Positions 5,276-48,210 of a stretch of DNA of 64,000 nucleotides are shown here, piece by piece (positions within the stretch are counted from its first letter, which is position 1; each line of letters starts with the position of its first letter). A model generated the notes under the pieces. That model saw only the letters and a program-made list of their open reading frames with translations, did no database searches and had not been told where the DNA came from. The position numbers and the translations under genes are program-made. Source of the stretch: Hondaea fermentalgiana (taxonomy: Eukaryota > Sar > Bigyra > Thraustochytrida > Thraustochytriidae). Location: the NCBI GenBank assembly GCA_014084085.1, contig NPFB01000174.1:8607-72606 (forward strand), read 5' to 3'.

Positions 5276-6748
5276 CTAAGCGCTCACATCCTTTGGCGGC
5301 GGGCCGTCAGCGTTGCCAACAGCCACAGCCTCAGCCATGACGTACTCGCCGTTCTCAAAGCGGTCGAACTCAAAGCACCGGTACACAATAATGGCAGCCA
5401 TGAGTGAGACAGAGCCAAGTGTCAATGTGACCCACATGATAGCAAAGCCAGCAGTAACCCCGTTGCACGTGCCCTCCGCAAGCAGATCAACGTACATGGG
5501 GTTGATGTTCGAGCAATCGGCAACGTCGACAACCGAGTCAATCGCCCCGGGAATCTCGCCAATGCTCGTCTGAATGTCCTCCACAGCAGCAATGCACTCC
5601 GTGCCGTTCTCCACGGGGTATCCATACTCCGTGGCGTTGTTGATCGTCTCGTTCAGCGTCGTCAGCAACTCATCGATGCTCGCCTCAAATACATCGGTAA
5701 TGTTGCTTGTGTCGCCAACAGCCTCCGTGAGCGGGTTGGTGCCCTCGCAAGTCTGGTAGTAGCACAGGTAGCTGTAAGGGTCCGTAGAGCAGAGATCGGC
5801 ACCCGGGTCGTCCTGCAAGAGCATATCGGACAGCAAACGGTTCAGGTTGCTCGTGGGCGACGGCACGCAAAAGTCAGCGCCGGCTGTCGAAATGATGGCG
5901 AGAACAACAATCACAATCCACAAAAGGAGCAGCATGATCACACTCAGCACAATGAAAAAGGTGCCCGAGCATCCGGCGAGTGCCTTCGCGGGGCGCGTGC
6001 CGCTACCAGGTGCGTTCGTGTACAGACGGTACAGCGTCGCGATCGTAAACACTGCACTGATCACAATGATAAGCGCCACGGTGACCTTGTAGCCGACGCG
6101 GACCTTTTCCAAGTACGGGTCGATGGTTTCCACAACGTCGTTGAACTGCTGGACAACCTCGTCCATCTCTCCGGTCACACCGTCCAGGGAATCGTCAATA
6201 CTGTCCGCGAAATCGTCCCAGTCCGTTTCAGGAAAGGTAATGTTGGCGGTCTCCGTGAGGTTCTGGCACGTGACCGCGGCGACCTCGATGGTATCGAGCA
6301 CGCCCGTGGCGGTATCGGCTGCGGCAGCGAGGGTGGTATCGGTTTCGTCCACAAAGTCCTGCAGGCTCTTGCCCGTGCCCAGCACCGTGTCCAGACCGTT
6401 CAGGGCTTGCGTGTTGGCGCCCAGCGAGTAGAACCAGCCAAAGCAGCTCAGCACCATGAATCCCACAAAAAAGATGGCGCCGACCTTGTTGCTCCTTCCG
6501 CGGTTGCAGCACTTTTCGCGGCAGCACCCGATGCAGCACAGAGCAAACACCCAGATGATGAACACAATGAACGCGGCAATGGGGCCCGCCGAAATGCCAA
6601 TCACGTACTCCACCGTCGGGTCGTCCTGGCTGAGCGCAAAGCCGGCCGTGGGGAAGTTGAACTCGCTCGAGCCCCTCACACGCGGCGAGTTATGCAGCAT
6701 CTCCAGCACGCTCGGCGCCACATACGTCGGCGCCGTGTAGTCGCCCAT
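5276..6748 (-). CDS. Five-pass membrane protein of tweety/prominin-like topology
   Basis: The 490-residue product has five predicted membrane segments at about 49-71, 89-109, 220-240, 262-287 and 433-456. The N-terminus would be outside. A short Cys- and Arg/Lys-rich inner loop (about 71-88, C-C-x-G-C-C then C-C-N-R-G-R) is likely palmitoylated. Two large outer loops (110-219 and 288-432) carry N-x-T/S sequons, and the second has paired cysteines. The tail is short and inside. This is the layout of the tweety and prominin families, but identity is low by eye, so only the fold type is claimed. The ATG at 6748 begins the conserved-looking part; upstream frame is repeats. Confidence 0.75.
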   Translation of the reverse strand: MGDYTAPTYVAPSVLEMLHNSPRVRGSSEFNFPTAGFALSQDDPTVEYVIGISAGPIAAFIVFIIWVFALCCIGCCREKCCNRGRSNKVGAIFFVGFMVLSCFGWFYSLGANTQALNGLDTVLGTGKSLQDFVDETDTTLAAAADTATGVLDTIEVAAVTCQNLTETANITFPETDWDDFADSIDDSLDGVTGEMDEVVQQFNDVVETIDPYLEKVRVGYKVTVALIIVISAVFTIATLYRLYTNAPGSGTRPAKALAGCSGTFFIVLSVIMLLLLWIVIVVLAIISTAGADFCVPSPTSNLNRLLSDMLLQDDPGADLCSTDPYSYLCYYQTCEGTNPLTEAVGDTSNITDVFEASIDELLTTLNETINNATEYGYPVENGTECIAAVEDIQTSIGEIPGAIDSVVDVADCSNINPMYVDLLAEGTCNGVTAGFAIMWVTLTLGSVSLMAAIIVYRCFEFDRFENGEYVMAEAVAVGNADGPPPKDVSA

Positions 6749-8105
6749 GGTCTCTCTCCCTCTGCTTGCCAACCTGCCTGCCTGCCTGCCTGCCTGCCCG
6801 TGCCCTCCCGCCCTGCTCGACGCGCGCCGTGCCTCTGGCTCCCTCGTCGTTTCCGATTTGTTGGTTTGCTTGCTTGCTTGCTTGCTTGCTTGTCCTTGTT
6901 TGCTTGTCCTTGTTTGCTTGTCCTTGTTTGTTTGTTCGCAACAGACACTAATAACCGGCCGCTCAGCTTTTCCAGCGCGGCGCGTGTCCCTCTCTCTCTC
7001 CCCCCTCTCTGGCGGCGCCCGATCCACGCGGCAATAACAAAAAGCAGCAGCCAGTGCAGCCAAAGAGGAAGCGCGCGAGGGGTGTGTACAACAAGGTGTG
7101 TGTCCGTGTGTTGGCCGGCCCGGACACAGGCTGGCGATAAAACAGTGACTGGAAAATACACACCTGGTACTAACAATGTAAGCCCCCGCAGCACGATGTA
7201 CGGTCACCACTCTCACCTTCGCCTTCGGGGACCGGTCTTCCTCGCGGGCGGGGGAACCCTTCGCATCGCGCCGCTGCCGCGACGCGGCGCGTCGCACGCG
7301 CCCAGGAAGGCTCTGCGTCCCCGTCTCCGTCTCCGTCTCCGGCATGCATTCCATTATCTACGCGAGTCTGGCAGCGGCCACCAGCGGCCCTCGCGTCGAG
7401 CATACATGCGCGCTAGCACCTCCTACCGCAGATCCGGCAGGATGCTACGCGCGCCGCGCCCTCTCGAATCCCGCTCTGCCTGCCTCCGCTCCGCGCCAGT
7501 CGGGACGCAGACCGCGGTCGAGCGCTCTCCCTCGCGCTCTCCCTCGCGCTCTCCGTGGCCGCTGCCGAGCATGTAACGGCCGGCCGTGCGCCCATCTGCC
7601 TGGATCCTGAGAGCGTGGCGAGCGAAGAGGCAGGCCCTGCTCGGAATCAGCACGACACGACTTGCGCATTGCTAGGCAGGCAGGCAGGCAGGCGAGGTGG
7701 CGCCGGTGGAGACCACGCCAATCTCGAGCACTGCGCCGATCTCGTGCAAGCCCTGGGCCGTCCTACGTAGGCTGGCCATTGAGCAAACCGCGGTGCGGCT
7801 GCGCAAACTGGCTGCAGCTGCTGCACTGCTGCTGCAGCTGCTGCTGCTCGGCCCGAGTCGGCCCACGGCGATGTCTTCGTGGCGAGTGCAGCCAGCTGCA
7901 GATGGGAGGCGCGGGCTCCTTCACTCTACTTTACTTTGGACAGGAGCCAGCTAGCAAGCAAAGCCGAAAGGAGAGCGCAGGGGACGCGAAGGCGCGCATG
8001 GGCCGCGGCGCAGGAGCGCCTGCGCCCCCGACTGCGCCCGCACGCGCCGCTGCTCGCGCGGGCCCGCCGGCGCGTCGTCGTCGCGCGCGCGCGAGCAGCG
8101 CCGTG
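6749..8105. promoter_or_regulatory. Divergent spacer between five-pass protein and first redox fusion gene
   Basis: No gene is supported. It contains CTGC repeats at about 6773-6797, GCTT repeats at 6866-6892, and three copies of a 14-base CCTTGTTTGCTTGT-type unit up to about 6930. CTCTCCCTCGCG units lie at about 7526-7556. Closer to the redox gene are one ACTTGCG heptamer (7660-7666) and three AGCTGC palindromic elements (7814-7821, 7834-7841, 7893-7901). An Ala/Arg-rich open frame runs into the redox gene but looks like leader. Confidence 0.5.
6866..6930. repeat. GCTT and CCTTGTTTGCTTGT tandem repeats
   Basis: About seven GCTT units are followed by three copies of a related 14-base unit. 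They lie in the leader or promoter of the five-pass protein gene. Confidence 0.85.
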
Positions 8106-10676
8106 ATGCGGAACAAAGCGGTGCTGCTGCTGCTCCTGATGCAGGTGCTGCTGGTCTTTGCACTCGCCGTCTCGCTCGGCACGGCGCTGCGGTCGCCCCC
8201 GCAAAGCGAATGGGCAGCCCTCGTGGCCGACATCGAGCGACAGCACGCCCTCGTGCCCTTCGTGCAGGCCTATGGCCAAAATGACACCTGGTTCAGCGCC
8301 TCGAACCCGCCCTTGAGCCCTGACGCCGCCGAAGAGGTCGAGAAGCACGTGCCCAGAATGTGGCAGCGGTCCGGAACGCAAGTCAACATCCGCGTCAGCC
8401 ATGAAATGATCTGGACACCCAACGACGTCGTCGACTTTGCCCACTATATTCACTACGTCTTCGTGCGCAACAGCTCCTCGAGTGAAATCGTCTACGTCGG
8501 CATTCTCGAACCCGGCGACACCTCCGTCGACATTGATACAACCGTCCTCGGCGGCCTCGGGGGCCAAGGTTTCCTCGTTCCCTACGAATTCTGCAATGTG
8601 CACGGTCTCTGGAGAGGCGAGGCCCTCCAAACCGTCGACCCCGTCTCTTGGAACCTCACCACCGCCTCGCTCAAACTTTTTGGCCAAGTCGAAGAAGAGT
8701 GTCAGGGAAATATCTACCTTCTTGACGACTCGCACTCGCTTCAGCTCAGTCTCATCAACAGATATGATGAGGTCGTCGTCGACGTGGCCGACGCAGTGAG
8801 CCTTCAGGCCACCTTTGTCTTTCCACGCGGACAATTCTTTGGCCTCGGCTTTGGTGACTCCATGCTCGGCGCCGACATGATGATTGCCGCCGAGCGCGAC
8901 GGGACCGCGCTCTGCGCCGACTTCCATACCACAGGAAACAGCAATCGATACAGTGGTCCTGACATTGATGCCCAACAAGACGTTCAAGTCGTCGCAGCTA
9001 CGCTTCAAGATGGCGTCGCCACGCTTGTCTGTACCAAGTCGTTGCGCAGCGCTGACCCCGACGACAAGGCCGTGCTCAACCAACGCGAAAACCTCATTTG
9101 GTCCTTTCAAGAGGTGGATGGCGAGCCTTCGACAACTTCCAACGCCTTTCTCAAACGTCATGGCGCAACCAATCGAGGTTACATTCTCAACGCAGATCTT
9201 GGCGGAAGCGGCGGTGAGCTGGCAATTGCCAATAGTCGCGACAAGCGCGATTTACAGGTTGCTCACGGCATGCTCATGTACATGATTTGGGGCATCAACA
9301 TTTGCGTCGGTGCCATGATTGCCAGATACGCTCATGACAGGGCCTGGGGCATTGGTGCGCATCGAATCATTCAGAGTATCAACACCATGCTGACGCTGCC
9401 CGGTTACTATCTGTCGCAGCGCTTCGTCGATGTGCACTTTCAATCAGCCCATGCATTCATCGGCACAACGCTCGTATACACTTCAATTCTGCAGGCGGGT
9501 CTCGGGACCGCCGCGTATCTCTGCTCCAAGTACTCGAAAAAGGTTGCCCGCGAGTATCCCAAGAGCGACGCACTTTCCGATGAAAACAAACTCTTTATCG
9601 CCGGCATCGAGGACGAACACGGCCAGCGCGAGCTCCTGCACGAGGTTTACCACAAGCTCGACACCCTTTCGACGCCACGCGCGTTCGAGATCACCGCGTA
9701 CGTCGAAAACACAATTAGTCAGGGCATCCCATCGTGCATGCCGCCAGCCATTGCCGTGTATATTCTCACACGGATGCGTCAAACAGTGATTCGTCCCATT
9801 CACAGGGTCGTCGGACGACTCTTGCCCATCATCGCATATGTGCAAATCTACCTTGGTCTCGATCGACTTCAGGCCAACAATGTCATTTCCGCCATCATCA
9901 ACATGTGGACCATTCTCGTTGTCCTCATTCTCATCTACAAAGAGTCAGAGCTTCAATTGAATCTTCCTCACGGGGTAGCCCCCAAGCTCTTTCTCTTGAA
10001 AGACAGGCTACAGCGTCTCTTTTGCTCATGCTGCCCACGAACGCAAGACCCGAAACCAGACGCGAATGACGGTGACGACGATGATGATGGTGATATTGAT
10101 GGTGCCGCCACCGGTGGCGGTGAGGCAGGGAACAGGAGCTCGCGAAACCTTTTGGAAAAAGGGTCTATCCGAGATCACGATCTGGAGCGTTCGCATTCTA
10201 GTATTCATAATGATCACCCTCAAGGGGGCGCGCACGGATCTCCATTTTCCCAAGCAAAGACACCCATGCAGTCCTTTCAAAGCGCGGAATCCGTCGATAG
10301 TCAATATGCTTTGCCTCCCGCTCCGTGCTCCTCACCCAAGACGAGCAAAGAATCACCACTAGCTTCATCTTCTCTCGAGTTCGTCCCCCTCGATGACTTT
10401 ACCAATACAGCTGTAGCAGAAGAAGGTGAAGACGATGAAGAAGAACAAGCGGCCGGGAAACTGCAGTCTTCGTCGTCTATTGAGGGAGCTCCGCCCCGCA
10501 TTATTGTCGACACCAAGCCCTCCTTTGCCTTTGACCCCAGCCCTAACTCAGGAGAACAATCGAGCGATACGGAGGGCCTTGCTTCACGACCTACAGACAA
10601 TACGCAAGAAACTGACCAAGAGCCTGGACCTGACTCGACCACCTCTCTCGAATTGAGATCCATATCCACCGTCTAG
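8106..10676 (+). CDS. Superoxide reductase-like / DOMON / cytochrome b561 fusion, copy 1
   Basis: The 856-residue product starts with a signal peptide (about 1-27). Residues 79-170 carry the full iron-ligand pattern of superoxide reductase: E79-K80-H81-V-P, H99, H113 in H-Y-I, an L-x-P-G-D turn at 134-138, and C163-N-x-H166-G-L-W. A DOMON domain follows (about 210-340), with G-L-G-F-G and candidate haem Met M253 or M258. A b561 core follows with four His: H387, H419, H449 and H566. H449 and H566 are 117 apart, so the core has a roughly 80-residue loop absent from typical b561. The tail (about 625-856) is acidic, Ser/Pro-rich and probably cytosolic. Inferred role: electrons from a cytosolic donor cross the membrane to reduce superoxide on the outer or luminal face. 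ATG 8106 is chosen because the signal peptide starts there. Confidence 0.85.
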   Translation: MRNKAVLLLLLMQVLLVFALAVSLGTALRSPPQSEWAALVADIERQHALVPFVQAYGQNDTWFSASNPPLSPDAAEEVEKHVPRMWQRSGTQVNIRVSHEMIWTPNDVVDFAHYIHYVFVRNSSSSEIVYVGILEPGDTSVDIDTTVLGGLGGQGFLVPYEFCNVHGLWRGEALQTVDPVSWNLTTASLKLFGQVEEECQGNIYLLDDSHSLQLSLINRYDEVVVDVADAVSLQATFVFPRGQFFGLGFGDSMLGADMMIAAERDGTALCADFHTTGNSNRYSGPDIDAQQDVQVVAATLQDGVATLVCTKSLRSADPDDKAVLNQRENLIWSFQEVDGEPSTTSNAFLKRHGATNRGYILNADLGGSGGELAIANSRDKRDLQVAHGMLMYMIWGINICVGAMIARYAHDRAWGIGAHRIIQSINTMLTLPGYYLSQRFVDVHFQSAHAFIGTTLVYTSILQAGLGTAAYLCSKYSKKVAREYPKSDALSDENKLFIAGIEDEHGQRELLHEVYHKLDTLSTPRAFEITAYVENTISQGIPSCMPPAIAVYILTRMRQTVIRPIHRVVGRLLPIIAYVQIYLGLDRLQANNVISAIINMWTILVVLILIYKESELQLNLPHGVAPKLFLLKDRLQRLFCSCCPRTQDPKPDANDGDDDDDGDIDGAATGGGEAGNRSSRNLLEKGSIRDHDLERSHSSIHNDHPQGGAHGSPFSQAKTPMQSFQSAESVDSQYALPPAPCSSPKTSKESPLASSSLEFVPLDDFTNTAVAEEGEDDEEEQAAGKLQSSSSIEGAPPRIIVDTKPSFAFDPSPNSGEQSSDTEGLASRPTDNTQETDQEPGPDSTTSLELRSISTV

Positions 10677-10751: not shown

Positions 10752-11060
10752 ATCCAACGTCGTACTCAACTCAACGCTCGTGTCAAAGTTCGGGTACTTA
10801 TGGGCCGGCAGCTTAATGGTAAGGTTTGGACATCCATTCTGTCGCCGAGACCAAACCCAGACAGCCAGCACTCTGGGGGCTTCCAAAATCAGTGTTCCAA
10901 CTGGTCCGCGACCATCACGAGAGCATACAGCCCAATGAGGGCTTCCAAAAAAGTGTCCTGCCTTGTCTGCGACCCATGCAGGCACATTTCTAGAGCCTCT
11001 CGCATTACAAAGAGAGCTGGTGCCAGGAAGGGGACGAGGACCTCGTCGCCGCTCAGGTTA
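10752..11060. repeat. Direct repeat, copy A
   Basis: Shared blocks with copy B, in the same order, include AACGT(C/T)GTACTC, CAGCTTAAT, GTAAGGT, CATTCT, GAGACCAAAC, CTTCCAAA, CCTGCCTTGTCTGCGAC, GCCTCTCGCAT, GGTGCCAGGAA and ACGAGGACC. Copy A also has a short internal repeat of the GGGCTTCCAAAA block. Confidence 0.8.
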
Positions 11061-11202: not shown

Positions 11203-11475
11203 AACCAACGTTGTACTCGGCTGGGAGTTTGTAGCAACGTACTATCAGCAATCGTGGGTCAGCAACTTAATCGTGGGTCAGCAGCTTAATTCATCGTAAG
11301 GTACAGACATTCATTCTATCGCCCGAGGCCGAGACCGAGACCAAACAGCTGAGCCTTCTGGGGCCTTCCAAATCAGTGCCCTGCCTTGTCTGCGACGCAT
11401 CCAGGCCCAAGTTTCGATCGAGCCTGTCTCGCATAACGAAGAGAGACGGTGCCAGGAATGAAACGAGGACCGCCC
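11203..11475. repeat. Direct repeat, copy B
   Basis: This is the counterpart of the 10752-11060 block, displaced by about 450 bases. It contains its own small duplication of a CAATCGTGGGTCAGCA-type unit at about 11249-11290. Confidence 0.8.
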
Positions 11476-11980
11476 AGGCTGCACAGCCGCCCTGACGTTC
11501 GGGAGGCAGTGCGCTGGCCACAGCCACTCCCCCCGCTACCTCCCCCTTTTCTCCTCCTTTGCCCCTCTCGCTCGCGCTCTCCAACACGCCGGCGGGGTCC
11601 TCGACCGACGCGCGCGAGACGGGGCACTCGTTTCGCCTTTTTGATCGGCATCCTGATGGTTGCCCGTCGAGAGCACGGTCGGAAGGCCGCGGCCCCGTCC
11701 GCTGGCTCCTGTTCACGAACCCGCGCGACCAACGCGGCAGCGGGCGAACAGCGCTTCTGCAGGACGTCTCGGGGTCGCTCGCAGAGCCACAATGCCCGCA
11801 CGCGACTGTGATTCGCAGCATCGCCGCCGCGCCCTCGAACCGCTCAGCGCACAAGGGCGAAGAGAAGGAGACGCCAGAGGCACGCGCGAGAGGTCTCTGC
11901 GCAATGACAAGCCTACGATACGCCGTCGACGCACGCGGCAGCCGCTTGGCGAGGATGGCGCTGCGAAACGAGGCGAGATC

Positions 11981-14650
11981 ATGACGCTGGTGCTCGCGCT
12001 CGCGCTCTGGGTCTCGCTCGCTTCCGCGCTCAGGGTGCCTCCGCAGAGCGAGTGGGCAGCTCTCGTGGCCGACATCGAGCGGCAGCACGCGCTCGTGCCC
12101 TTTGTACAGACTTTTGGCCAAAACGATACTTGGTTCAGCGCCTCGAATCCGCCCTCGGCCCCGGACTCTCTCGAGGTGGTCGGCAAGCATGTGCCGCAAA
12201 TGTGGCAACGCTCCGACACGCAAGTCAATATTCGCGTCAGCCACGAAATGAATTGGAACCCGGAAAACGGCCAAGACTTGCACTATATTCACGCCGTCTT
12301 CATTCGCAATAACGCCACGATGGACATTGTCTTTGTCGGGATTCTTGAACCCGGCGATACCTCCGTCGACGTCGATGCATCCGTTTTCGGTGGTCTTGGG
12401 GGCCAAGGTTTTCTTGTTCCCTACGAATTCTGTAACATACACGGGCTCTGGCAAGGCGACGCGCTTCAGACGTTTGACGCGGCCTCCTGGAACCTCATTG
12501 CGGAATCGCTCAGACTCTTTGACAAAGTGGAGGAAGAATGCCAGGGTAATATCTATCTCCTCGATGACACGCACTCGCTCCAGCTCAGTCTCATCAACAG
12601 AAAGGGCGAGGTCGTCGTCGACGTGGCCGACGCGACAAGTCTTCAAGTCACCTTTGTCTTTCCGCGTGGACACTTTCTCGGTCTCGGGTTTGGCGACTCC
12701 ATGCTCGGCACCGACATGATCATTGCTGCCGAGCGTGATGGAACCGCGCTCTGCGCCGACTTCCATACTTCGGGGAGCACGAGTCGATCCAGCGGTCCTG
12801 ACATTGATGCCCAGCAAGACGTCCAAGTCGTCTCCGTAACGCTCGAAGACAAGCTCGTCACGCTTGTCTGCACCAAGTCCTTGTATAGCTCTGACCCCGA
12901 CGACAAGGCCGTGCTCAATCAACGCGAAAACCTCATTTGGTCCTTTCAAGAGGTTGACGGCGAACCCTCGACAACCTCCAACGCCTTCCTCAAACGTCAT
13001 GCCGCAACCAACCGAGGCTACATCCTCGACGCGGATCTTGGCGGAAGCGGTGGCGAGCTTGCGATTGCCAACAGTCGCGACAAGCGCGATTTACAAGTTG
13101 CTCACGGCATGCTCATGTACATGATTTGGGGCATCAATATTTGCGTCGGAGCCATGATTGCCAGATACGCCCATGACAGAGCCTGGGGCATTGGTGCGCA
13201 TCGCATTATCCAGGGCATCAACACCATGCTGACGATGCCAGGGTACTATCTGTCGCAGCGCTTCGTCGAAGTGCACTTTCTTTCTGCCCATGCCATCATT
13301 GGCACAATACTCGTATACAGCTCGATTCTGCAGGCCGGTCTTGGAACCATAGCATATCTCTGCTCCAAGTACTCGAAAAAAGTTGCAAAAGAGTTCCTTC
13401 AAAGCGAGATGCTTTCGCAGGAAAACAAGGACTTTATTGCAAAGATCGAGGCAGAGCACGGACAGCGCGAGCTCTTGCACGAGATCTACCACAAGCTCGA
13501 CACCTTGTCGACACCGCGCGCGTTTGAAATTACTGCCTTCATCGAAAAGACAGTCAATCGAGGCATTCCATCGTGTGTGCCACCAGGGATCGCCATCTAT
13601 GTGCTCACTCGTTTGCGTCAGACGGTAATTCGCCCCATTCACAGGATCGTGGGACGTATCATGCCCGTTTTTGCCTACGCACAAATCTACCTTGGTCTCG
13701 ATCGCCTCCAAGCAAATACGGTAATTATCGCCATCATTAACATGTGGACAATCCTCGTGGCCATCATCCTTATATACAAAGAGTCCGAGCGCCAATTCGG
13801 TCTTCCACACGGTGTCCTCTCCAAGCTTCTTTACTTTAAGCGCCTGATTCGCTCGTTGTTGTGTCGCCAAAAGAAGCATGATGGGAAACGAGATTCGTTT
13901 TCTGGGAGCGACCAAGCCCGTGCAAACGTCAACTCTGGCGACCTTGAGCGCGCAAGCATTCAGGAAACGGGACGCTCCATTGCTGGGGAAGACTCCGTAC
14001 GCCATTCTTACCCTGCATCAAGAGATTCCCGGGTAGCATTTCCGAGACGTCACTCATCTCCTCACGAAGTCTCTTCGCAAGTGCGACGTTCTCATGGAAA
14101 GTTATGTGTGCAGACCTTTCCGAGCACGGGATCCGAGGAAAGCAGCTCCTTTGTGCCTTCAGCCCCGTGTTCCACCCCAAGAGCGGGAAGTGAGCACCTT
14201 GTCCTGGATCGCATACCCACTGAATTGAGTCTCACGAAAGCCTCGCACGCAGAGCTTGACCATGACGGAACGGAGGTCGAGATGTCAACTCCAAAACTCC
14301 CACCCAGGATCACGTTCACGACAATGATCGCCACTGGTGCTAGCTCCAGCGTTTATGCCGAGGATGCACAGCCAAGGCATGTTGATGCTGACAACGCGGA
14401 AGCGGCACCAAGTTTCTCGCACACCTCTCAACCAGAGCCCGACAATGACATTGAAGATATCGATATGCCACCTCCAGAACTCCCACCCAGAAAGAGGGTT
14501 TATAGTAAAGAGTTGTCGTCCCCTGGTGCCGAAGCTAGCGCGGATGGGGAAGACTCTGCACCAAGTACCGATCAGCGTGCAAAAGAGGCTAAAGACGACG
14601 CAAATTCTGCATCAGGGACTTTGAAAACAGACCCTTCATCCTCGACATAG
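11981..14650 (+). CDS. Superoxide reductase-like / DOMON / cytochrome b561 fusion, copy 2
   Basis: This 889-residue tandem paralogue of the 8106-10676 gene is very close from residue 18 to about 600. It has a signal peptide (1-17). The iron ligands are K69-H70-V-P, H88, H101 and C151-N-x-H154-G-L-W. A DOMON domain follows (about 200-330), then b561 His H375, H407, H437 and H554 with the same 117-residue spacing between the last two. The Glu that precedes Lys-His in copy 1 is Gly68 here; in studied superoxide reductases that Glu is the mobile sixth iron ligand. The C-terminal tail (about 610-889) is longer and differs from copy 1. It keeps a P-x-A-P-C-S-x-P block and has two P-x-L-P-P-R motifs. 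Expected location and role are as for copy 1. Confidence 0.85.
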   Translation: MTLVLALALWVSLASALRVPPQSEWAALVADIERQHALVPFVQTFGQNDTWFSASNPPSAPDSLEVVGKHVPQMWQRSDTQVNIRVSHEMNWNPENGQDLHYIHAVFIRNNATMDIVFVGILEPGDTSVDVDASVFGGLGGQGFLVPYEFCNIHGLWQGDALQTFDAASWNLIAESLRLFDKVEEECQGNIYLLDDTHSLQLSLINRKGEVVVDVADATSLQVTFVFPRGHFLGLGFGDSMLGTDMIIAAERDGTALCADFHTSGSTSRSSGPDIDAQQDVQVVSVTLEDKLVTLVCTKSLYSSDPDDKAVLNQRENLIWSFQEVDGEPSTTSNAFLKRHAATNRGYILDADLGGSGGELAIANSRDKRDLQVAHGMLMYMIWGINICVGAMIARYAHDRAWGIGAHRIIQGINTMLTMPGYYLSQRFVEVHFLSAHAIIGTILVYSSILQAGLGTIAYLCSKYSKKVAKEFLQSEMLSQENKDFIAKIEAEHGQRELLHEIYHKLDTLSTPRAFEITAFIEKTVNRGIPSCVPPGIAIYVLTRLRQTVIRPIHRIVGRIMPVFAYAQIYLGLDRLQANTVIIAIINMWTILVAIILIYKESERQFGLPHGVLSKLLYFKRLIRSLLCRQKKHDGKRDSFSGSDQARANVNSGDLERASIQETGRSIAGEDSVRHSYPASRDSRVAFPRRHSSPHEVSSQVRRSHGKLCVQTFPSTGSEESSSFVPSAPCSTPRAGSEHLVLDRIPTELSLTKASHAELDHDGTEVEMSTPKLPPRITFTTMIATGASSSVYAEDAQPRHVDADNAEAAPSFSHTSQPEPDNDIEDIDMPPPELPPRKRVYSKELSSPGAEASADGEDSAPSTDQRAKEAKDDANSASGTLKTDPSSST

Positions 14651-31486: not shown

Positions 31487-34400
31487 TTACGGAGGAACCT
31501 CGCTCTCCTTTAAAAGCCGATGCGACGCGCCACACAGTTCCGCGAGCGTGTTCACCGTGCGCACAATACTGTGACACTCGATTGGTCGCAAAAGCGACTC
31601 GTCCGTGCACTCGATTTTCTGGGCATAAAAGGCAGAGCGATCAACTTGAGGAACCAAATCACCATCCGGGATCACATTGATGGTATTGCGTCGGAGCTCG
31701 TCAAGCTTGTCCTCGGCCAACAGACCAATGCTCAACTCGCTGCCAGGCGCCGAGAACACGGCATTGGGTACGTCCTCCCGCGCTCCCAAAAGACTTGCAA
31801 GTCCACCACCCAGAGAGTGGCCCGTCAGGTAAAGACGGCTGTTGCGAGCTGTGGCATTGCTCTTAAGCTCGCGAACACAGTCCATGAGCTCATTTGCGTA
31901 GCTCCCAGCATTGAGAATCCGGGTTGCGCGAAGGAAATCGGGAATCACTGCTCCCCAGGAAGTTCCAAAGGGAAGAATCTGAGTGGCAATGTCTGCAATC
32001 ATGACTGGGCCCCATAGCGCAATGTCCTCGAACCAGTCCTTGAAGTCGACGGTGCCCCGTATGCTAAGCACTGTTCGCGGTGGCCCACCGGACGAAGGCG
32101 TTACATCAAACAGACGTGTGGTAGCTCCCGGTCGTCCACATGCCTCCGGGTATGCTGAAGACTCCCACATCGTGACACGTGAAGATGAGTCACTGAACCA
32201 GGCCGTGAGCACATCTTTCGTGTCATCAGACTGTGGCTCGTATGCGAGCGCCGCGAGAACCCCAAAGTCCACGAGAGAAAGACCAACATCTTCGCTTGCG
32301 TTCCAAACGGTCTGCACGTTGCAGTAGCCGAGGACTTCGCGACCGCCCTCTGCGCCGATGGACTGCACACGGAGATTCGTAGTCTCTGCATTGATTGACT
32401 CCATATTCTCGTACATTGTGTACATCGCGAAACCATAGCACACCGAAACAAAAACCATGAGCGCATAGATGAGGCGTTGTTTCCGCATCCAGCTGAGAGA
32501 TTCAAGCCTATGATGAGCCTTCGCCCGAACGGAAGTCATTGCTGAAGTCTGAGTTCCGTCGCTATCCCTTCTCACCAGCAAGGTTTTCTCGAAATGGTCT
32601 CGTCTGGACAAGTACACCCACCCCTCCGGATCGAGAACAAAAAAGACGAACGAAAAAAAACCGATTCCGACTGAGAGCCAGACCCAATTTCGCCATTCAT
32701 CTCCTTCGATTTCAGAGTTGATCTTCTGGATAAAGGCGACTGTAAAACTGATGCTGACCAAAATGCAAACCCAGAATACTGTCCAGAGAACCTTTCCTTT
32801 AGGCTTTGCCATCCACGTGCGTCGGACAACCGTGGATGCTGGTGGTGAATGCCGGCCGCATCGATCACTTATTTGGAAGCCTACAATGTCAAAGAGGCCA
32901 GAATCACGAACAACCGCACCAGTGTCCACTGGGCTCAGGATCCAGCAGAGATGACTCATCACCGACTTGGGATTCCTCGAAATTTTTTTTGCGCATGACT
33001 CCACGATGCCAAGCTTGGAAACCGTCTTATACACTGCAACTAGTGTGAAAAGTACGGGTACAGCGGAAAGCCCGAGACTTTTATACATTGCACCGAGAAG
33101 CATGAGGAAAGACCCAATGATACAAAACAAAATCAACACTTCCAGAACAAGTGTAAGATCGGAAATGCACCTCGCGCGGGACCCAAAGTGGTTTGACGTG
33201 CTTGCTCCACCAGCCCGATTCGCTTCCTCCTCGTCGTGATCATCGAGGGAGGTAGCGTTGCTGAAAGTAGAGACCATATCCGCGCGCCCACCATGGTCTA
33301 CGATCTGGGTCAAGTGGCGCCTGGGTCGTGTTGGAATGACCTCGGCGTACGTCATTTCTGTCACGGTCGTGATCTTATGAAATTCCGGTTCTACACACAG
33401 GAGCTTTACGAAGTACGGAAAAGACTCGAAGTCTACATGAGCTTCGTTTTGCTGTTCACTGTTCTCGGCTTCTGTGTGAATGGACGACAGACTATATGTG
33501 AGCCTTTGCTTGATAATCAGGACCACCGAAGTTAATATGCGATGACAGCAATTTCTTCTCGCAACGGAACCATTCACGTCTTCGTTTCGGATTTTCCGTA
33601 ACTTCCGAATGATGAACCAGGTTGTCCAGATATGCTCGATAAAGTAAACGAAGCAGATGAGTCCTGCACCGAGAATGCTCACCAGTTGAGTATATAAGAC
33701 AGCATCACTCCAACCTAATTCCCAAACCACTTTCGCACCTAAAGTCAACACCGGGCACCAAACGAGTGTAAGTGCAAAAAGTCGATCACAGAGAACCTCC
33801 TTGTCATGTTGCGAGCCTGTGCCTATGCTTGGGAGCAAGTACTGAATGTACTGAAAGTTGGAAAAAATATCCAGGAAAACCCGAGTGATGATACAGAACA
33901 GATGTGACACAACGTGGATCACCTGTATAAAGAGTGGAATCTTCAGTATCTCCGTCGGTTTGCCAAGTATGGTTCCCGCGGCAATTTGATGCAGTAGTGA
34001 AAGGGTGAAGATCACGATAAACACGCACAGCTGAAAGATGCTGTACACGTACAAAAGGCGCATGAAGAAGTGCAGCGGTCGGAAATTCGACACGCTCTGC
34101 ACTTCGAGAGTGGTTACGTTGGGATTTACGCTCTCGTCTGGCGACTGAACTTTCCGAACACGCAGTTGCTGGTCGCCATTGTTAGCGACCCAAATAAATC
34201 CTCTGTCCGCAACACCTGGAATATATTCCAGCTGCATTGATTTTGGCGACCTCGCGCCATCACAGAAATGAATTGTATGCCCTCTGTCTCGGTCACTCGA
34301 TGCCGATTGTCCAGTCGAAGGCGCGGTTGGAGGTGCAGTCGTGTCACCAAGGGTACCACTCTGGCCAGCGTCTGTTGAGGGATACAAGCTTCTGGTTGGC

Positions 34401-35701
34401 ATCTGCTGGCGGGTACTGTTAACGGCACGTGAAGAAACAGACTCGTAGGATGATTCTGAGGAAGTGCTGTCATGGGATTCTGAGGAACCCTGACGTTGAA
34501 ACGAAGACACATGCTCCGTACCTTGGGCGGTACTTCTGGTGGGAGGCCTTGAGGTGAAAGGTGGAGTCGCAATGTTCGGTTCAGCACGTCTTCGTGGAAC
34601 TTGCGGCGGCCGTCTTGGGCTGCATATATCCTCCAGGCGAGTGTCTGAGGAGATCGTTCCTGTCGTCGTGTTGCTTGTTGCTCTTTGAGCAGGATTGACT
34701 GCGTTCGGAGAATCGTTGTCCAAAGCACGAGGCCCATTTTGCATGCTACCTGCAGCGGTGATCTGCAGCGTTTGATCTGATCTTGGAGTGCCTGTACTCA
34801 GTCTGGGTGGAATCGTAGAGGACGTCTGGCTTCGAGCCTGCGCACTTACCTGCGAGCCGAGTGGCGCAGAGCTTTGCTGTGCTCGACCCGATGCCAGAGT
34901 GCCTGTACTCGGTTTGGGTGGAGTCGTAGACGACGTCTGGTTTCGAGTCTGCGCACTTGCCTGCGAGCCGAGTGGCGCAGTGCTTTGCTGCGTTTGACCC
35001 GATGCCAGAGTGCCTATACTCGGTTTGGGTGGAGTCGTAGACGACGTCTCGTTTCGAGTCTGCGCACTTGCCTGCGAGCCGAGTGGCGCAATGCTTTGCT
35101 GTGCTCGATCCAATGCCAGAGTGCCTGTACTCGGTTTGGGTGGAGTCGTAGACGACGTCTGGTATCGAGTCTGCGCACTTGCCTGCGAGTCGAGTGGCGC
35201 AGTGCTTTGCTGCGTTCGACCCGATGTTGGAGTGCCTGTCCTCGGTCTAGGTGGTATCGTAGAAGACATCTGGCCTCGAGCCTGCGCACCTGTCCGCGAG
35301 CCGGATGACGCGGTGCCTTGCTGCACTTGATCTAATGTCGAAGTACTAGTTGTTGGTCTGCGTGGTACGGTTCTGGAGGACGTCTGGCCTCGAGCCTGCG
35401 CACCTGTCTGCAAGCGGGATGACGCGGTGCTTTGCTGCGTTTGCCCCGATGTTGGAGTGCCTGTCCTCGGTCTGGGTGGTATCGTAGAAGACATCTGGCC
35501 TCGAGCCTGCGCACCTGTCCGCGAGCCGGATGACGCGGTGCCTTGCTGCACTTGATCTAATGTCGAAGTGCTGGTTGTTGGTCTACGTGGTATGGTTCTG
35601 GAGGGCGTCTGTCCCTGAGGGTAAAATCCCGTGGTGCCTTGCTGCGCTCGACTTGGATTTGTCGTTCGCGCAGGCTGGTTTCCTGGAGGACCTTGCGACA
35701 T
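31487..35701 (-). CDS. Giant multi-pass membrane protein with C-terminal class 3 lipase domain
   Basis: The 1404-residue product has three parts. The N-terminal 480 residues are disordered and Thr/Ser/Pro/Gln-rich, with about seven 37-residue repeats encoded by 111-base DNA repeats. The middle (about 550-1130) has roughly ten hydrophobic segments. The C-terminal part (about 1150-1390) is an alpha/beta lipase: G-H-S-L-G-G with nucleophile S1296, an acidic residue in I-P-D-G-D-L-V-P, and a C-H-S-I-x-R-T His. That His environment resembles Atg15-like lipases. It is probably a membrane-embedded acylglycerol or phospholipid lipase; membrane and substrate are unknown. ATG 35701 begins the disordered region and no intron is needed. 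Confidence 0.85.
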   Translation of the reverse strand: MSQGPPGNQPARTTNPSRAQQGTTGFYPQGQTPSRTIPRRPTTSTSTLDQVQQGTASSGSRTGAQARGQMSSTIPPRPRTGTPTSGQTQQSTASSRLQTGAQARGQTSSRTVPRRPTTSTSTLDQVQQGTASSGSRTGAQARGQMSSTIPPRPRTGTPTSGRTQQSTAPLDSQASAQTRYQTSSTTPPKPSTGTLALDRAQQSIAPLGSQASAQTRNETSSTTPPKPSIGTLASGQTQQSTAPLGSQASAQTRNQTSSTTPPKPSTGTLASGRAQQSSAPLGSQVSAQARSQTSSTIPPRLSTGTPRSDQTLQITAAGSMQNGPRALDNDSPNAVNPAQRATSNTTTGTISSDTRLEDICSPRRPPQVPRRRAEPNIATPPFTSRPPTRSTAQGTEHVSSFQRQGSSESHDSTSSESSYESVSSRAVNSTRQQMPTRSLYPSTDAGQSGTLGDTTAPPTAPSTGQSASSDRDRGHTIHFCDGARSPKSMQLEYIPGVADRGFIWVANNGDQQLRVRKVQSPDESVNPNVTTLEVQSVSNFRPLHFFMRLLYVYSIFQLCVFIVIFTLSLLHQIAAGTILGKPTEILKIPLFIQVIHVVSHLFCIITRVFLDIFSNFQYIQYLLPSIGTGSQHDKEVLCDRLFALTLVWCPVLTLGAKVVWELGWSDAVLYTQLVSILGAGLICFVYFIEHIWTTWFIIRKLRKIRNEDVNGSVARRNCCHRILTSVVLIIKQRLTYSLSSIHTEAENSEQQNEAHVDFESFPYFVKLLCVEPEFHKITTVTEMTYAEVIPTRPRRHLTQIVDHGGRADMVSTFSNATSLDDHDEEEANRAGGASTSNHFGSRARCISDLTLVLEVLILFCIIGSFLMLLGAMYKSLGLSAVPVLFTLVAVYKTVSKLGIVESCAKKISRNPKSVMSHLCWILSPVDTGAVVRDSGLFDIVGFQISDRCGRHSPPASTVVRRTWMAKPKGKVLWTVFWVCILVSISFTVAFIQKINSEIEGDEWRNWVWLSVGIGFFSFVFFVLDPEGWVYLSRRDHFEKTLLVRRDSDGTQTSAMTSVRAKAHHRLESLSWMRKQRLIYALMVFVSVCYGFAMYTMYENMESINAETTNLRVQSIGAEGGREVLGYCNVQTVWNASEDVGLSLVDFGVLAALAYEPQSDDTKDVLTAWFSDSSSRVTMWESSAYPEACGRPGATTRLFDVTPSSGGPPRTVLSIRGTVDFKDWFEDIALWGPVMIADIATQILPFGTSWGAVIPDFLRATRILNAGSYANELMDCVRELKSNATARNSRLYLTGHSLGGGLASLLGAREDVPNAVFSAPGSELSIGLLAEDKLDELRRNTINVIPDGDLVPQVDRSAFYAQKIECTDESLLRPIECHSIVRTVNTLAELCGASHRLLKESEVPP
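34780..35610. repeat. 111-base coding tandem repeats
   Basis: The period is exact: the ATGCCAGAGTGCC block recurs at 34891, 35002 and 35113. More diverged copies extend to about 35600. Units translate to 37 residues with core S-S-T-x-P-P-x-P-S-T-G-T-x and A-Q-x-R-x-Q-T. Two unit types alternate at the 5' end of the gene. Confidence 0.92.
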
Positions 35702-38176
35702 CGTGACGAACGAGCGTAGGAGCAGCAGCTAGCTCTCTTTCCTCTTCGCCTTGATTTGCCTTGTCTCGACTTATCGCCTCGCCCCCGTCCACCCACCCAC
35801 CCACCCCCGTCTTTCGCCGCGTTCGCCTTTAGACTGCCCGAACTTCGCGCCCGTCTCAACACGCGCGCCTCGATGCGCTCGGTCGCGCTCGCGGGGTGTG
35901 CAGTTCAGTTTCTGCCATTATTGCTGCAGCCTGCGCAAGTAAAGAATCAGGGCCGCAACTCGGCCAATCAGCCGCGTGGCGCGTGCACGCGACAGCGACT
36001 GTTCGTCGTATGAGTACGTGCTATCATGCAACACAAGCGCTCCCAGCGGAACCCCAAATCTTCAAATTTCCCCGATTACTCCGGTGAACATGGTCTTCTC
36101 GAATGACACGTATTGAAGAGAGCGCGACGATCATGAAGTCTGGTTGTGCATGCCAGGGGGGTGGCGTTGCGACAGACGATGTCAATCTGCAGTCCCCATA
36201 CTCTGTCATGATCAGACAAATTAATAGAGAATAGGCAGAAGAAGGAAGAGAAATTTGATTCGGAGCAACCGGCGAAAGTACGAGCAAAGTTCTCTTTTGT
36301 TGCGAGAAAGAGAATCAAGGCATTTCCAAGCGACTTCGCAATCTGAAGAGCATTTCGAAACCTGGTAGGGCACACTTGCAGCCCGTTACCGTGAGAGCTC
36401 CCAGAAAAAACTTTCGAGAACTCCGGGTGCGTTCACCTCCCAAAAGATAGAAGGCAAGATGCAAGGTCAGAAATCTTGTGCAAAAAAGGTGCGTGCTGAA
36501 GTTAGTTTTCGTCCGGTGTCCTCACATTTCATCAGCAGACTTTTTACTATAATTTTCAACCAACTTGTATGACAGGCAGGCCTACGTTAGTCTACTGTGA
36601 GTCCGATGCATTGCAGCAAATAATAAGCAGGTAAAAACAAGCATTGACAAAAAGCGAGTGACAAAAAGGGTGAACTGAGATGCTCCGGGCGTCGCAACAA
36701 AGCCAAACTGCGCCAGCGTGATGAGGGCTCCATCAAGAACATAAAGAAATCTTGAACTTTGGTTCTGCGTCTCCTGCGGGACATTCGCCTCTTCGTTGGC
36801 TTTGACAAAATCAAACTCAAGCTCGAGCTCAGTTTCTCTTTCCTTGGCCGTCGGAAGTTATTTTTTTTAAATTAATCTCTTCACCTTCTTTAGCTCTTTT
36901 GCGCTCGAGGGATAATGATGAGGGTGTTGAGAGGGATGAGAGGGAATCTTGCTCTCGCTGCTGCTTCTTTGCGCTCGATAGTTGATTGAATTGGATGAAG
37001 CTGTAGCTACGAACACAAGAATTGGACTTCGAAGACTCTTGCTCTTTCTTCTCAAACACCTTCTTCTTGGAACGAACAGCCTCGCTCTCGAAGCCGACTG
37101 TAGACGATTCGCACGTGAAGACGGAGGAGAAAGTCGTCCTCCGCTGCTGCACAATCTCACGCGCGCAAAGGGACAGCGCGATGATTATGTTCGTTGGACG
37201 CAATTGTGGCCTTAGCAAGATTTTTTTCCAACTTGATCACGTCCAAACTAAGCCGCACGGTTCACGCAACGGTAAGAGTGCCTAAAGCTGGACTTTCTGA
37301 CTGTGAGTCTCCTACGAATCGCATTCGCTCGCGCAATGATTCAGATGACGAAGCGTTGATCTTCGCTGCAAAAACTTGCATTCCTCAGGGGTAGAAAGTG
37401 ACAATCTCAGAATTCTTGCAAAAGAACATAAACAGACAAGTAAATAGTTGTACTGCTCCTTGGTGAAGTTGACTTACTCTCGTGGTCATCTCCTCTCCTC
37501 TGCAATCGAATTCAAATTCGAAATAGACGGCAGGTTGGTTTGCATCATAGGGCTCAGATCGAGCATGCACAGCAGCGTGAAGTATTTTGAGGAAAAGGAG
37601 AAGTCGACGTGAAAGTTCTGGAAAAAGAGTGACACGGAGTGTGCCTTTTCGCTGTCCATCATTTCGACACCATTTGATGCGTCCAATAATTATGGTTCAT
37701 TTGCACGCCGGATCAAGGTCGTCTTGCAGTAGCGTTGAATCGCCAGGAAATCATTCAAGGCGTACCCGCGCCAACGGTTGCGGAGCGTACCCGAAAGCAT
37801 CATTTTCAGGCTCGACTTTGACGATCATTTGGGTCCCATCTATAGTGAGACGACCAGGATCGCCAGGCATCTAGTATACCAAATTCCCGGCCAGCGCGTG
37901 TATTCCTCCGTTCCTCACTGTCAAGACGCTAGACCTTGCCACTGTAAGGATGGCCCGATGAACGACTTTGAGGCAAGCCTGAGGAATCCTGAGCAAAACC
38001 AAGTCACACCGACGCGCCTTGCCTTCCGGTGCGCAGACGAGACGGGCGAGCGGAGGCGCAGACGGGGCGTTCTCCGGGGCCCGCTGCGCCGCGTGCGCCA
38101 CCGAGCGCTAGGAACTCTACCCAGAGAAGACGTCTGCAAGAAGGAGAGAGTGAGACAGGGACTGGGCGAGAGAAAG
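35702..38176. promoter_or_regulatory. Long divergent spacer between lipase and MFS genes
   Basis: In 2.5 kb no gene is recognised. One CGCAAGT heptamer lies at 35934-35940, near the lipase start. The centre (36000-37700) is clearly less GC-rich than coding DNA. A Ser/Lys-rich minus-strand frame near 36829-37218 lacks an ATG. An open frame running into the MFS gene from upstream has no transporter-like content. Confidence 0.45.
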
Positions 38177-39814
38177 ATGGCTCGGGTGGAGCAACTGGCA
38201 AGTATCGGTCTGGTGGGTAGCGACGGGGCCTTGCGGCCGCGATGGCTATACTTTGTCGGGATGCTCATGCTTTCGGGCCAGGGACGCTTCTTGTCGTTGA
38301 TGCTGGAAAGTTTTAATCTCTCCGATGCGGAAATTGGTATTATCTCATCCTTGCCGCGGTCGTTGAATGCTGTCGCGCCGCTAATCTGGGGTCTGCTCGC
38401 GGATAGAGCCTTGGGCAGGGAAGCTGCAATGTGCGCTTCGGCCGGATCGGCAGCCTTGGCCTTTGGACTGCTTTATTATCCGCATCTCCAGTCCTTTGAG
38501 AATGTACTCGTGATCCGAACAACACATGGGGTGCTCTTGTCTGGGTTCGCTTCCCTCGCGGACAGCTATTGCCTGGCGCATGTTCTCCCAGCGCTTCCCC
38601 CGGGCGCTCAGGATGATTCCATGGACCGTAAAAAGCTTTACGGCCGAGAGCGACTTTGGGGTGCAATATCTTGGGCCCTCGGCAGTCTCTTGCTAGGCTA
38701 CCTTTTTGATGTCTTTGACACGTACTTGCTCATGATCCCCTTTTACATAATCACGAGCATTGTTACCATTGTCGCTATCATGGCGAGTGTACTTTCGCAA
38801 TATCTCGTATCGAATGCCGGAACGTACGCCAAGGTCGACGTGGAAGACCCAGGCTCGCCGGACGTCGGGATCGAGCTGGCCGGGTTGTCGCATGATGAAA
38901 TCAAAAGCGAGAACCACCTCGCTTCTCGTGTCGAAGACGAAAGAACCTCGACTCGAGAAGAGACGGGGTCCTTGGCATCCGGATATGCGTCCCATCATCC
39001 AGTTCTTCCCCAGATTCTCGCCACGGACGAGGCCGAGGAGATCCCAGCAGTCGTCTTTTCGGCTTCAGAAACGCCCGATGACGCGGGCACCATCGCAGAC
39101 GCTGCGCCGATCGATGATAATGGCATCGAAAAGGAAAGGGCTGTAACGCTCGAGGGTGTCGCACAGACTACACTTGAGGACCTTTCGACGCGAGAAAAGG
39201 TGCGTGCTTTCGGTCACGTTGCTTGTTGCAACGTTCCAAATCTCACGTTCTTTCTCACCCTCGCGGTAGCGAGCGCGGGCGTGAGTCTTGTCGAGAATCT
39301 CTCGTTTATTTTTTTCAAGGATGACATTGGAACCTCAAACTTTGTCATGGGGATTTCAGTCTGCGTGACGGTTTCCTTTGAGATTCCGCTCTTTGCACTT
39401 GGGAACTCGCTTATTTCGCGCTTCGCGCCGCAGACGTTGCTGTTCTGGGGCCTCCTTGCGTATTCGCTGCGTGTCTTTGCGTATACGCTCGTCCCGAAAG
39501 ACCACGGATATCTCATTCTCCTCTGTGAACCTCTTCACGGCGTGACATATGCGCTCATCCAGCTCGCGTCTGTACTTATCGTCAGTGACATGGCACCTGC
39601 TGGACTTGAGAGCTTTGCTCAAAGTTCCATCATGGCCTGTCGCAGTATCGGGACGAGTCTTGGTCTGGTCGTTGGCTCGGCCGTCATGGAGTCGTACGGC
39701 GCTGCTGTCATGTACCGCGGCGCATCTGTTGTCGTTCTGCTCATGGCTTTTATTTACTACGTTCTTGCTGTCTCTACCGTCCGCGAGCGGTCTCACGAGG
39801 GGCTCCAGAACTAG
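38177..39814 (+). CDS. MFS transporter, MFSD6/MFS_1-like, copy 1
   Basis: The 545-residue product has about 12 membrane segments. A long acidic inner loop (about 211-345) splits the two six-helix halves. Family signatures are W-G-x-L-A-D-R in loop 2-3, Y-G-R-E-R-L-W-G-A-I-S-W before helix 5, and E-P-L-H-G-V-T in the second half, as in the MFSD6/nucleoside-symporter-like group. Substrate is unknown. It is a tandem paralogue of the next gene, with matching helices but an unrelated central loop. ATG 38177 gives a short cytosolic N-terminus before helix 1; upstream frame is Arg-rich leader. Confidence 0.85.
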   Translation: MARVEQLASIGLVGSDGALRPRWLYFVGMLMLSGQGRFLSLMLESFNLSDAEIGIISSLPRSLNAVAPLIWGLLADRALGREAAMCASAGSAALAFGLLYYPHLQSFENVLVIRTTHGVLLSGFASLADSYCLAHVLPALPPGAQDDSMDRKKLYGRERLWGAISWALGSLLLGYLFDVFDTYLLMIPFYIITSIVTIVAIMASVLSQYLVSNAGTYAKVDVEDPGSPDVGIELAGLSHDEIKSENHLASRVEDERTSTREETGSLASGYASHHPVLPQILATDEAEEIPAVVFSASETPDDAGTIADAAPIDDNGIEKERAVTLEGVAQTTLEDLSTREKVRAFGHVACCNVPNLTFFLTLAVASAGVSLVENLSFIFFKDDIGTSNFVMGISVCVTVSFEIPLFALGNSLISRFAPQTLLFWGLLAYSLRVFAYTLVPKDHGYLILLCEPLHGVTYALIQLASVLIVSDMAPAGLESFAQSSIMACRSIGTSLGLVVGSAVMESYGAAVMYRGASVVVLLMAFIYYVLAVSTVRERSHEGLQN

Positions 39815-45116: not shown

Positions 45117-45716
45117 TCTCCGCGACGCCAACGACGCCAACGACGCCACGCCCGCTGTCAGTCAGTCGGTCCAGCTGCACGCCGACAGCCACCTTCCTCC
45201 GGCGGCCGGGAGGCTGCGCTGGCTGCCGAAGCCTCTGCGCGTCGTGCCGTCTCGTGTCGTGTCGTGTCGTGTTGTGTCGTCTTGCGTCTCGCGTGCGTGT
45301 GCGTGCGTGCGTTCAGGTTTGCCGTCTCACGTCGCCGCTGCGAGGGAGGAAAAGGCGCAGGGCAGGGGAGGGAGGGGGGGGGTCCTCGCACGTGCAAGTT
45401 AAAGTTATAAGTATGGGTATAGCAGCAGTACAAGCTGCAGCTGGCTGGTAAAAAGAAGATGTTCCTGCGTCATTGCCGTGACCACCTCGCTCCGTGCAGT
45501 ACACGTGCTTGCGCGATCTCTTCTCACTTCTCTCAATAAAGGGGAACGTGCAAACTTTTTTGTGGGTGTGCACTCTGGGTTTGTTCCCAAACGTTTCGTT
45601 TCGAGCTGGACAAGGTGGAACAGATCATTGTGCAAGTTTAATCGTTTCGAGCTGGAGGAAAAAGAGCGAGAGAAAGAGAGAGACTAGTAAAGTTTAAGTA
45701 GGTCGAGGATGGTTAT
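45117..45716. other. Spacer between tandem Sec14-GOLD genes
   Basis: It has GTGTC-type repeats at about 45253-45280, a G-rich run (45370-45381) and an AGCTGCAGCT element at 45433-45443. No gene is seen. Confidence 0.5.

Positions 45717-48209: not shown

Positions 48210-48210
<1 letters not shown>

Follow-up and report, generated by a model that had tools for sequence, protein, structure and literature searches.

Introduction

Most descriptions of superoxide reductases (SORs) concern anaerobes and microaerophiles, in which they are small proteins that receive electrons from soluble carriers. The SORGOdb database holds 325 SORs, three of them eukaryotic, with classes for enzymes predicted to be secreted by twin-arginine translocation (TAT) and for atypical fusions, and the portion of its published account drawn on here mentions none joined to haem domains (PMC3116461; this and the other papers below are cited for parts of their text). 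Among membrane haem proteins, Arabidopsis HYP1 is a CYBDOM (DOMON-b561) protein that conducts an ascorbate-dependent electron current across the plasma membrane; it was modelled with five helices, the His pairs H211-H278 and H245-H314 and the DOMON ligands M90-H174 (PMC10784544). Here we analyse a 64,000-nucleotide stretch of Hondaea fermentalgiana (contig NPFB01000174.1), hereafter the window, to which all window coordinates refer. One of its open frames, gene 1, encodes a protein (P0001) in which an SOR-like domain precedes a DOMON domain and a cytochrome b561 core; gene 2, close by, encodes a paralogue (P0002). A first-pass annotation of the window had described known SORs as small, soluble and rubredoxin-fed, which is nearly right, the exceptions being seven predicted TAT-secreted SORs and the few reported from eukaryotes (PMC3116461, PMC6397501).

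The domain make-up of P0001 is well supported, and its catalysis, donor and location are predicted from it. On balance we favour a membrane-anchored, electron-wired extracytoplasmic superoxide reductase, whose topology, metal and haem content, electron direction and reaction are all predicted from the amino acid sequence.

Domain architecture of gene 1

Gene 1 comprises the following main parts:

8106..10676, + strand: gene 1, encoding the SOR-DOMON-b561 protein P0001 (single open frame, 856 residues, with full-length relatives)
8106..8189, + strand: signal-peptide-like segment, residues 1-28 (mean hydropathy 2.89 over residues 6-24)
8190..8330, + strand: segment preceding the SOR domain, residues 29-75 (no Cys)
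8331..8621, + strand: SOR-like PF01880 domain, residues 76-172 (profile matches)
9981..10673, + strand: acidic, Ser-rich, fast-evolving tail, residues 626-856 (31% identity between paralogues; predicted to be cytosolic)

The first-pass annotation had placed SOR-like, DOMON and b561 domains in this frame, and Pfam profiles find all three, in that order. The desulfoferrodoxin iron-binding family (Desulfoferrodoxin, PF01880) matches residues 76-171 above its cut-off (25.6 bits versus a gathering score of 22.2), DOMON matches residues 241-333 (46.2 bits) and Cytochrom_B561 residues 393-484 (27.3 bits), the latter two being above cut-off in both P0001 and P0002. A Pfam scan of P0001 at E<=10 gave nothing beyond these three domains. 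The frame is open upstream as far as 7662, with further in-frame ATGs at 7902 and 7998; position 8106 was chosen as the start because this ATG yields a signal-peptide-like N-terminus. The hydrophobic start agrees with the signal peptide proposed at first pass, and judging by hydropathy P0001 probably carries one. Residues 29-72 are 89% identical between the two paralogues. As the segment before the SOR domain has no Cys, it has no desulforedoxin-type iron site; the first Cys of P0001 is C163, and the N-terminal FeCys4 desulforedoxin domain of desulfoferrodoxin (2Fe-SOR) is therefore absent.

Relatives and tandem duplication

The same three-domain order, for which the first-pass annotation had proposed a search, recurs in the tandem paralogue P0002 and in two further proteins: P0003 (842 residues, sources MMETSP and JGI, 49% identity), which is transcript-derived judging by its source name, and P0004 (738 residues, JGI, 35% identity). 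They come from three protein searches, two of which scored 8,000 candidates each, so further relatives may exist. P0002 to P0004 likewise begin with a hydrophobic stretch, and all three Pfam families are matched at E<=0.01 in each of the four fused proteins; at the stricter Pfam cut-offs, b561 falls below 23 bits in P0003 (21.1) and P0004 (18.7), and DOMON below 32.7 bits in P0004 (29.9). An assembly or frame artefact was considered and is ruled out by the transcript-derived P0003 and by P0004, which have the same full-length order. Conservation along the whole length indicates a real fusion, of sufficient age for divergence to 35% identity. Among viral contigs, 31 stretches were looked at and none was confirmed.

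In a tree of SOR domains, the four fused domains all fall on the same side of a branch (97/95), and P0004 has a very long branch. The bootstrap did not reach stability, and the 37 bacterial rows had been selected for similarity; given these limits and the long P0004 branch, we claim no donor lineage.

The features of gene 2 are:

11981..14650, + strand: gene 2, encoding the tandem paralogue P0002 (889 residues; ATG at 11981, with an in-frame ATG also at 11792)
12185..12457, + strand: SOR-like domain (20.3 bits as protein, under the 22.2 cut-off; 25.0 bits, over it, in the genome search)
12668..12943, + strand: DOMON domain (Pfam)
13121..13393, + strand: cytochrome b561 helices 1-3 (Pfam)

Positions 8139-8741 contain two stretches of about 300 bases that are 76% and 78% identical to the gene 2 copy. 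At the protein level, the paralogues share 73% identity in the SOR domain, 86% in DOMON, 92% and 78% in the two b561 parts and 31% in the tail. Nei-Gojobori ratios of nonsynonymous to synonymous divergence (dN/dS) are 0.20 for SOR, 0.14 for DOMON and 0.11 for both b561 parts, with dS between 0.4 and 1.2 in these domains and saturated in the post-SOR linker and the tail. On these sequence comparisons, all three domains are maintained by purifying selection. A direct repeat of 58 bases (10929-10986 and 11352-11409, 81% alike) lies between the two genes and is perhaps a remnant of the duplication. Antisense open frames, alike by eye, lie opposite both genes (7926-9161 on the - strand, 411 residues; 11291-13000 on the - strand, 569 residues) and are probably a by-product of codon use rather than genes.

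Homology of the N-terminal domain to superoxide reductases

For comparison we used 37 bacterial SORs, which, having been found by patterns including C-N-x-H-G-L-W, do not sample SORs at random. Scored with a profile of 17 of them, P0001 to P0004 reach 41.6, 33.4, 25.6 and 24.9 bits, respectively. From 10,000 shuffled domains this profile reported 8,415, the highest at 8.5 bits. When the four fused domains are compared as a profile with the 17 bacterial SORs, hhalign gives a probability of 99.0 (E = 5.6e-18, single comparison). The same four-domain profile retrieves 17 PDB sequences at E<=10. Fifteen of these are named SOR or desulfoferrodoxin; the best 16 also include NEQ011, a Nanoarchaeum SOR, and the last is one unrelated protein. 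All 11 that reach E<=0.001 bear an SOR or desulfoferrodoxin name, with 6.5e-6 as the best E-value, and P0001 by itself reaches 0.0055 at best. Genome searches were run on six frames of the 36-Mb source genome, with introns not modelled, and PF01880 occurs there in two places only, gene 1 (30.6 bits) and gene 2 (25.0 bits), each time with a score over the cut-off.

Some results weaken the case for a superoxide reductase. NCBIfam neelaredoxin (TIGR00332) gives P0001 23.1 bits and thus misses its cut-off of 61.9 by far, TIGR00320 (desulfoferrodoxin) gives 18.4 bits where 146.9 is the cut-off, and PF01880 itself stays below 22.2 bits in the proteins P0002 (20.3) and P0003 (20.9), P0004 passing with 23.3. 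With C-N-x-H-G-L-W masked, the bacterial profile still gives P0001 20.0 and P0002 11.6 bits, and P0003 and P0004 drop to noise (5.8 and 3.7); with K/R-H-V/I-P masked too, P0001 falls to noise at 8.1, and the others to 3.1, -0.2 and -0.9 bits. Outside the C-terminal motif, likeness to SORs is thus clear in P0001 and modest in P0002; in P0003 and P0004 it cannot be seen alone, and their assignment is tied to P0001 by full-length homology.

The fall of P0003 and P0004 to noise once C-N-x-H-G-L-W is masked would be expected if the SOR likeness had arisen by chance in an N-terminal domain of another kind, as would the outcome of a protein search with the SOR piece alone, in which none of the 518 candidates reached E<=0.001. 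We nevertheless regard a chance motif as highly improbable and reject it: the best of the 10,000 shuffles lies far below all four real domains, the profile-profile probability is that given above, every PDB match at E<=0.001 carries an SOR or desulfoferrodoxin name, and in the six-frame genome search the domain is confined to these two genes. Sequence comparison thus identifies the domain of P0001 as a divergent relative of SORs, and not an orthodox neelaredoxin or desulfoferrodoxin. One bacterial match (L007) that seemed to extend beyond the SOR domain turned out to be an ordinary SOR of 126 residues.

Ligand positions of the predicted iron site

Conservation was scored in 19 aligned rows, namely the four fused proteins and 15 of the 37 bacterial SORs:

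8346..8348, + strand: H81, first ligand His (K-H-V-P), invariant in 19/19 rows
8400..8402, + strand: H99, proposed second ligand His (S-H-E-M, aligned with H-P-M), invariant in 19/19 rows
8409..8441, + strand: longer loop between ligand His 2 and 3, residues 102-112 (W103 and P105 invariant in 4/4 fused proteins)
8442..8444, + strand: H113, third ligand His (H-Y-I), 19/19 rows
8592..8603, + strand: C163, axial Cys, and H166, fourth ligand His (C-N-V-H-G-L-W), 19/19 rows

The five SOR ligand positions reported at first pass are present in the right order (K-H81-V-P, H99, H113-Y-I and C163-N-V-H166-G-L-W), as is the L-x-P-G-D turn, in the form L-E-P-G-D at residues 134-138. None of H81, H99, H113, C163 and H166 varies among the four fused proteins, at identities as low as 35%, and the five may converge on one iron in P0001. 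The first two ligands are separated by 18 residues in the fused proteins versus 20 in 32 of the 37 bacterial SORs. A Bacilli SOR (L005, 4881-5255) has V-N-H-V-M in place of V-G-S-V-x-H-P-M, and 17 residues between ligands 1 and 2. H-E-M is placed on H-P-M by hhalign and by the MAFFT multiple alignment; the bacterial profile does so for P0002 only and did not choose H-E-M for P0001, P0003 and P0004. From these alignments, H99 is a likely metal ligand. As for the loop extension of 7-8 residues, our guess is that it might serve as a docking place for the DOMON haem.

The DOMON and cytochrome b561 parts

The remaining features of gene 1 belong to the electron-transfer part:

8826..9161, + strand: DOMON domain, residues 241-352 (likely haem ligands M253, 8862-8864, and H352, 9159-9161)
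9246..9980, + strand: cytochrome b561 core, residues 381-625 (H387, H419, H449, H566)
9540..9761, + strand: insertion between helices 3 and 4, residues 479-552 (in all four fused proteins; predicted to be cytosolic)

The DOMON haem domain and four-His b561 core of the first-pass annotation are borne out by profile matches and by ligand positions invariant in all four proteins (H387, H419, H449 and H566 in b561; M253, M258 and H352 in DOMON). P0001 has the marks of a CYBDOM protein: a DOMON and then a b561 profile match, four haem His and the DOMON Met/His. When the loop 479-552 is removed, its b561 match widens from profile positions 6-107 to 6-131/137 (33.3 bits), so that the fourth helix is included. 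The His pairs of HYP1, and the likeness of order and spacing, suggest that H387/H449 would hold the outer haem and H419/H566 the inner one. A PDB search with the DOMON-b561 piece returned noise only.

The source genome has another CYBDOM frame, on contig C160, which PF01880 does not match and in which helices 3 and 4 are not separated by a large loop. Its S-M-I-G resembles S-M-L-G at M253 and its H-G-A the stretch at H352; the pairing was made by eye, MAFFT having misaligned parts of this frame. Between 43 and 53 kb, contig C160 has five DOMON matches across a row of frames, among them a 627-residue frame with DOMON and b561 and no SOR, and a 427-residue frame with two DOMON matches. The genome search for b561 missed genes 1 and 2, so its counts are lower bounds.

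Gene 1 has 74 residues inserted between helices 3 and 4, the other three fused proteins also have an insertion there, and the tail is long, acidic and Ser-rich; these features would suit a sensor or redox switch that reads external superoxide, peroxide, nitric oxide or sulfide and signals through its cytosolic loop and tail. Yet the tail is weakly conserved, even between the paralogues, and Pfam finds just the SOR, DOMON and b561 domains at E<=10; such a role seems improbable to us.

Predicted mechanism and alternatives

In the favoured mechanism, the protein would enter the secretory pathway, so that its SOR-like and DOMON domains come to lie outside or in a lumen, and the b561 core would hold two b-haems. 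A cytosolic reductant would give one electron to the inner haem, from which it would pass to the outer haem, to the DOMON haem (M253/H352) and finally to the SOR domain, whose Fe(His)4Cys centre would reduce superoxide to hydrogen peroxide outside or in the lumen. The DOMON-b561 part would stand in for the rubredoxin, desulforedoxin centre or soluble donor of canonical SORs; rubredoxin had no match in the six-frame genome search, in which introns were not modelled. SOR iron centres have potentials at or above those of b561 and DOMON haems, so electron flow towards the SOR domain would be feasible. Of the first-pass interpretation, the SOR homology, the three-domain order and the ligand sets stand; convergence on a single iron and superoxide reduction are still predictions.

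Several observations weigh against this mechanism. The spacing between ligands 2 and 3 is 14, 13, 14 and 13 residues in P0001 to P0004, versus 6 in 37/37 bacterial SORs (a feature of these matches, no published rule), and the distance from ligand 3 to the Cys is 48-50 residues versus 39-45. In PDB alignments, the later Pro of W-x-P is matched to the Pro of H-P-N in archaeal SORs, and H99 may be out of reach of the metal. The Glu before Lys/Arg-His is kept in two of the four proteins (P0001 and P0003), being Gly in P0002 and Arg in P0004, and the Lys before the first His is kept in three, P0003 having Arg; the N. equitans SOR reportedly does without the Glu. A simple hydropathy scan finds 3 of the 5 expected helices in P0001. 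The genome already has five places of superoxide dismutase (SOD) families, three Cu/Zn-SOD and two Fe/Mn-SOD, which by sequence suggests an aerobe; in favour of the mechanism, none of the three Cu/Zn-SOD frames shows a clear signal peptide by eye, and one of them carries a long low-complexity extension. Also against it, the ascorbate-synthesis enzyme ALO has no match in the six-frame search (introns not modelled), and ascorbate as the cytosolic donor is not assured, because no ALO-type enzyme was found.

The changed ligand spacing and the partial loss of Glu and Lys would fit an altered job, and the main rival is accordingly a CYBDOM metal reductase, in which the wire would reduce external Fe(III) or Cu(II) and the SOR-derived domain would be borrowed to hold or pass iron, with no superoxide enzyme involved. 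CYBDOM proteins do such work: HYP1 uses ascorbate to reduce ferric and cupric substrates (PMC10784544), the reeler-DOMON-b561 protein CG8399 is a ferric reductase and human SDR2 a putative one (PMC10691727). On the other hand, the five SOR ligand positions and C-N-x-H-G-L-W are retained at 35% overall identity, and a site filled by protein ligands would leave little space for metal exchange. We judge a metal reductase unlikely, if still the strongest competitor.

The favoured mechanism might also serve another purpose, the deliberate output of hydrogen peroxide for wall or extracellular chemistry, from superoxide made by the genome's NADPH oxidase (NOX)/ferric-reductase family and without return of O2; the chemistry would be the same and the purpose alone would differ. 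NAD_binding_6 occurs at four places in the genome, and the two that were scanned are long proteins with Ferric_reduct, FAD_binding_8 and NAD_binding_6. Judged by sequence, however, proteins of this family may be either superoxide makers or iron reducers, and we hold this purpose to be slightly less probable still than a sensor.

Taking the points on both sides together, we lean, by a little, towards a eukaryote with ordinary SODs that has a one-protein transmembrane SOR, its prokaryote-type iron site remodelled by a longer ligand loop, driven from the cytosol through three haems and acting outside.

Other features of the window

No RNA family or tRNA was found in the window, and ten other frames that were scanned (a leucine-rich repeat protein, an alpha-galactosidase and others) gave no functional hint. 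In the frame at 5276-7354 (- strand), which has several hydrophobic stretches, no Pfam family scores above its cut-off, and the frame at 31487-35701 (- strand, 1404 residues) has a class 3 lipase domain after a low-complexity repeat region, with several hydrophobic stretches. Besides genes 1 and 2, look-alike neighbours were seen by eye, one member of each pair having been scanned: transporters resembling the major facilitator superfamily (37778-39814 and 40368-41822), CRAL-TRIO/GOLD proteins (43671-45149 and 45717-48266) and perhaps a pair of alpha/beta hydrolases (60656-61975 and the window end).

Comparison with known systems

The first-pass annotation knew of no described enzyme with this architecture. 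Our literature search, whose coverage excluded subscription papers and preprints, likewise found no description of an SOR-DOMON or SOR-cytochrome b561 fusion, which supports, short of proof, the view that the architecture has so far been undescribed. Its nearest kin on one side are the neelaredoxin (1Fe) and desulfoferrodoxin (2Fe) SORs, which are alike in PF01880 homology, the five ligand positions, the L-x-P-G-D-like turn and C-N-x-H-G-L-W; P0001 differs from them in the 7-8 extra residues between ligands 2 and 3 and in having no desulforedoxin domain. In cellobiose dehydrogenase, a soluble protein, a DOMON-type cytochrome is the electron carrier of the redox domain joined to it, and the haem receives its electrons from the flavin enzyme. 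CybB, the b561 of E. coli, oxidises superoxide to O2 and reduces quinone, and is not known to have an SOR iron site.

Known SORs are small, at about 110-180 residues (PMC9916283), whereas P0001 is fused and would be extracytoplasmic. The diplomonad SORs of Giardia and Spironucleus also belong to eukaryotes, but these are low-oxygen organisms, whose SORs are described as laterally acquired, with soluble flavoproteins proposed as the electron route, and the part of their account cited here describes no fusion to b561, which P0001 has (PMC6397501). As in P0001, the DOMON homologue of cellobiose dehydrogenase has a Met/His haem (PMC10691727), and CybB, a superoxide oxidase, is a membrane b-type protein that handles superoxide (PMC11869295), as P0001 is predicted to do.

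On the other side, HYP1 is alike in its DOMON Met/His, four-His b561 and outward DOMON, and its ligand order and spacing, compared by eye, resemble those of P0001 apart from the loop; in the part of its description cited here it has no iron-enzyme domain in front, and P0001 also has the large loop between helices 3 and 4 (PMC10784544). Human SDR2/FRRS1 and Drosophila CG8399 are laid out alike, DOMON-b561 being preceded by an additional extracellular domain, which in them is a reeler, of a function in CYBDOMs that this source gives as not known, and in P0001 an SOR domain (PMC10691727).

The architecture thus combines two known kinds, an SOR domain and a DOMON-b561 wire. If P0001 is active, a eukaryote with ordinary SODs would have put an SOR outside the cytosol, beyond the reach of soluble donors, and solved its supply by fusion to a haem wire; DOMON-b561 modules would then be able to power iron enzymes, beyond reducing metals, and there would be a defined enzymatic handle on protist extracellular superoxide and the hydrogen peroxide derived from it. 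As far as our searches show, it would be the first SOR powered across a membrane.

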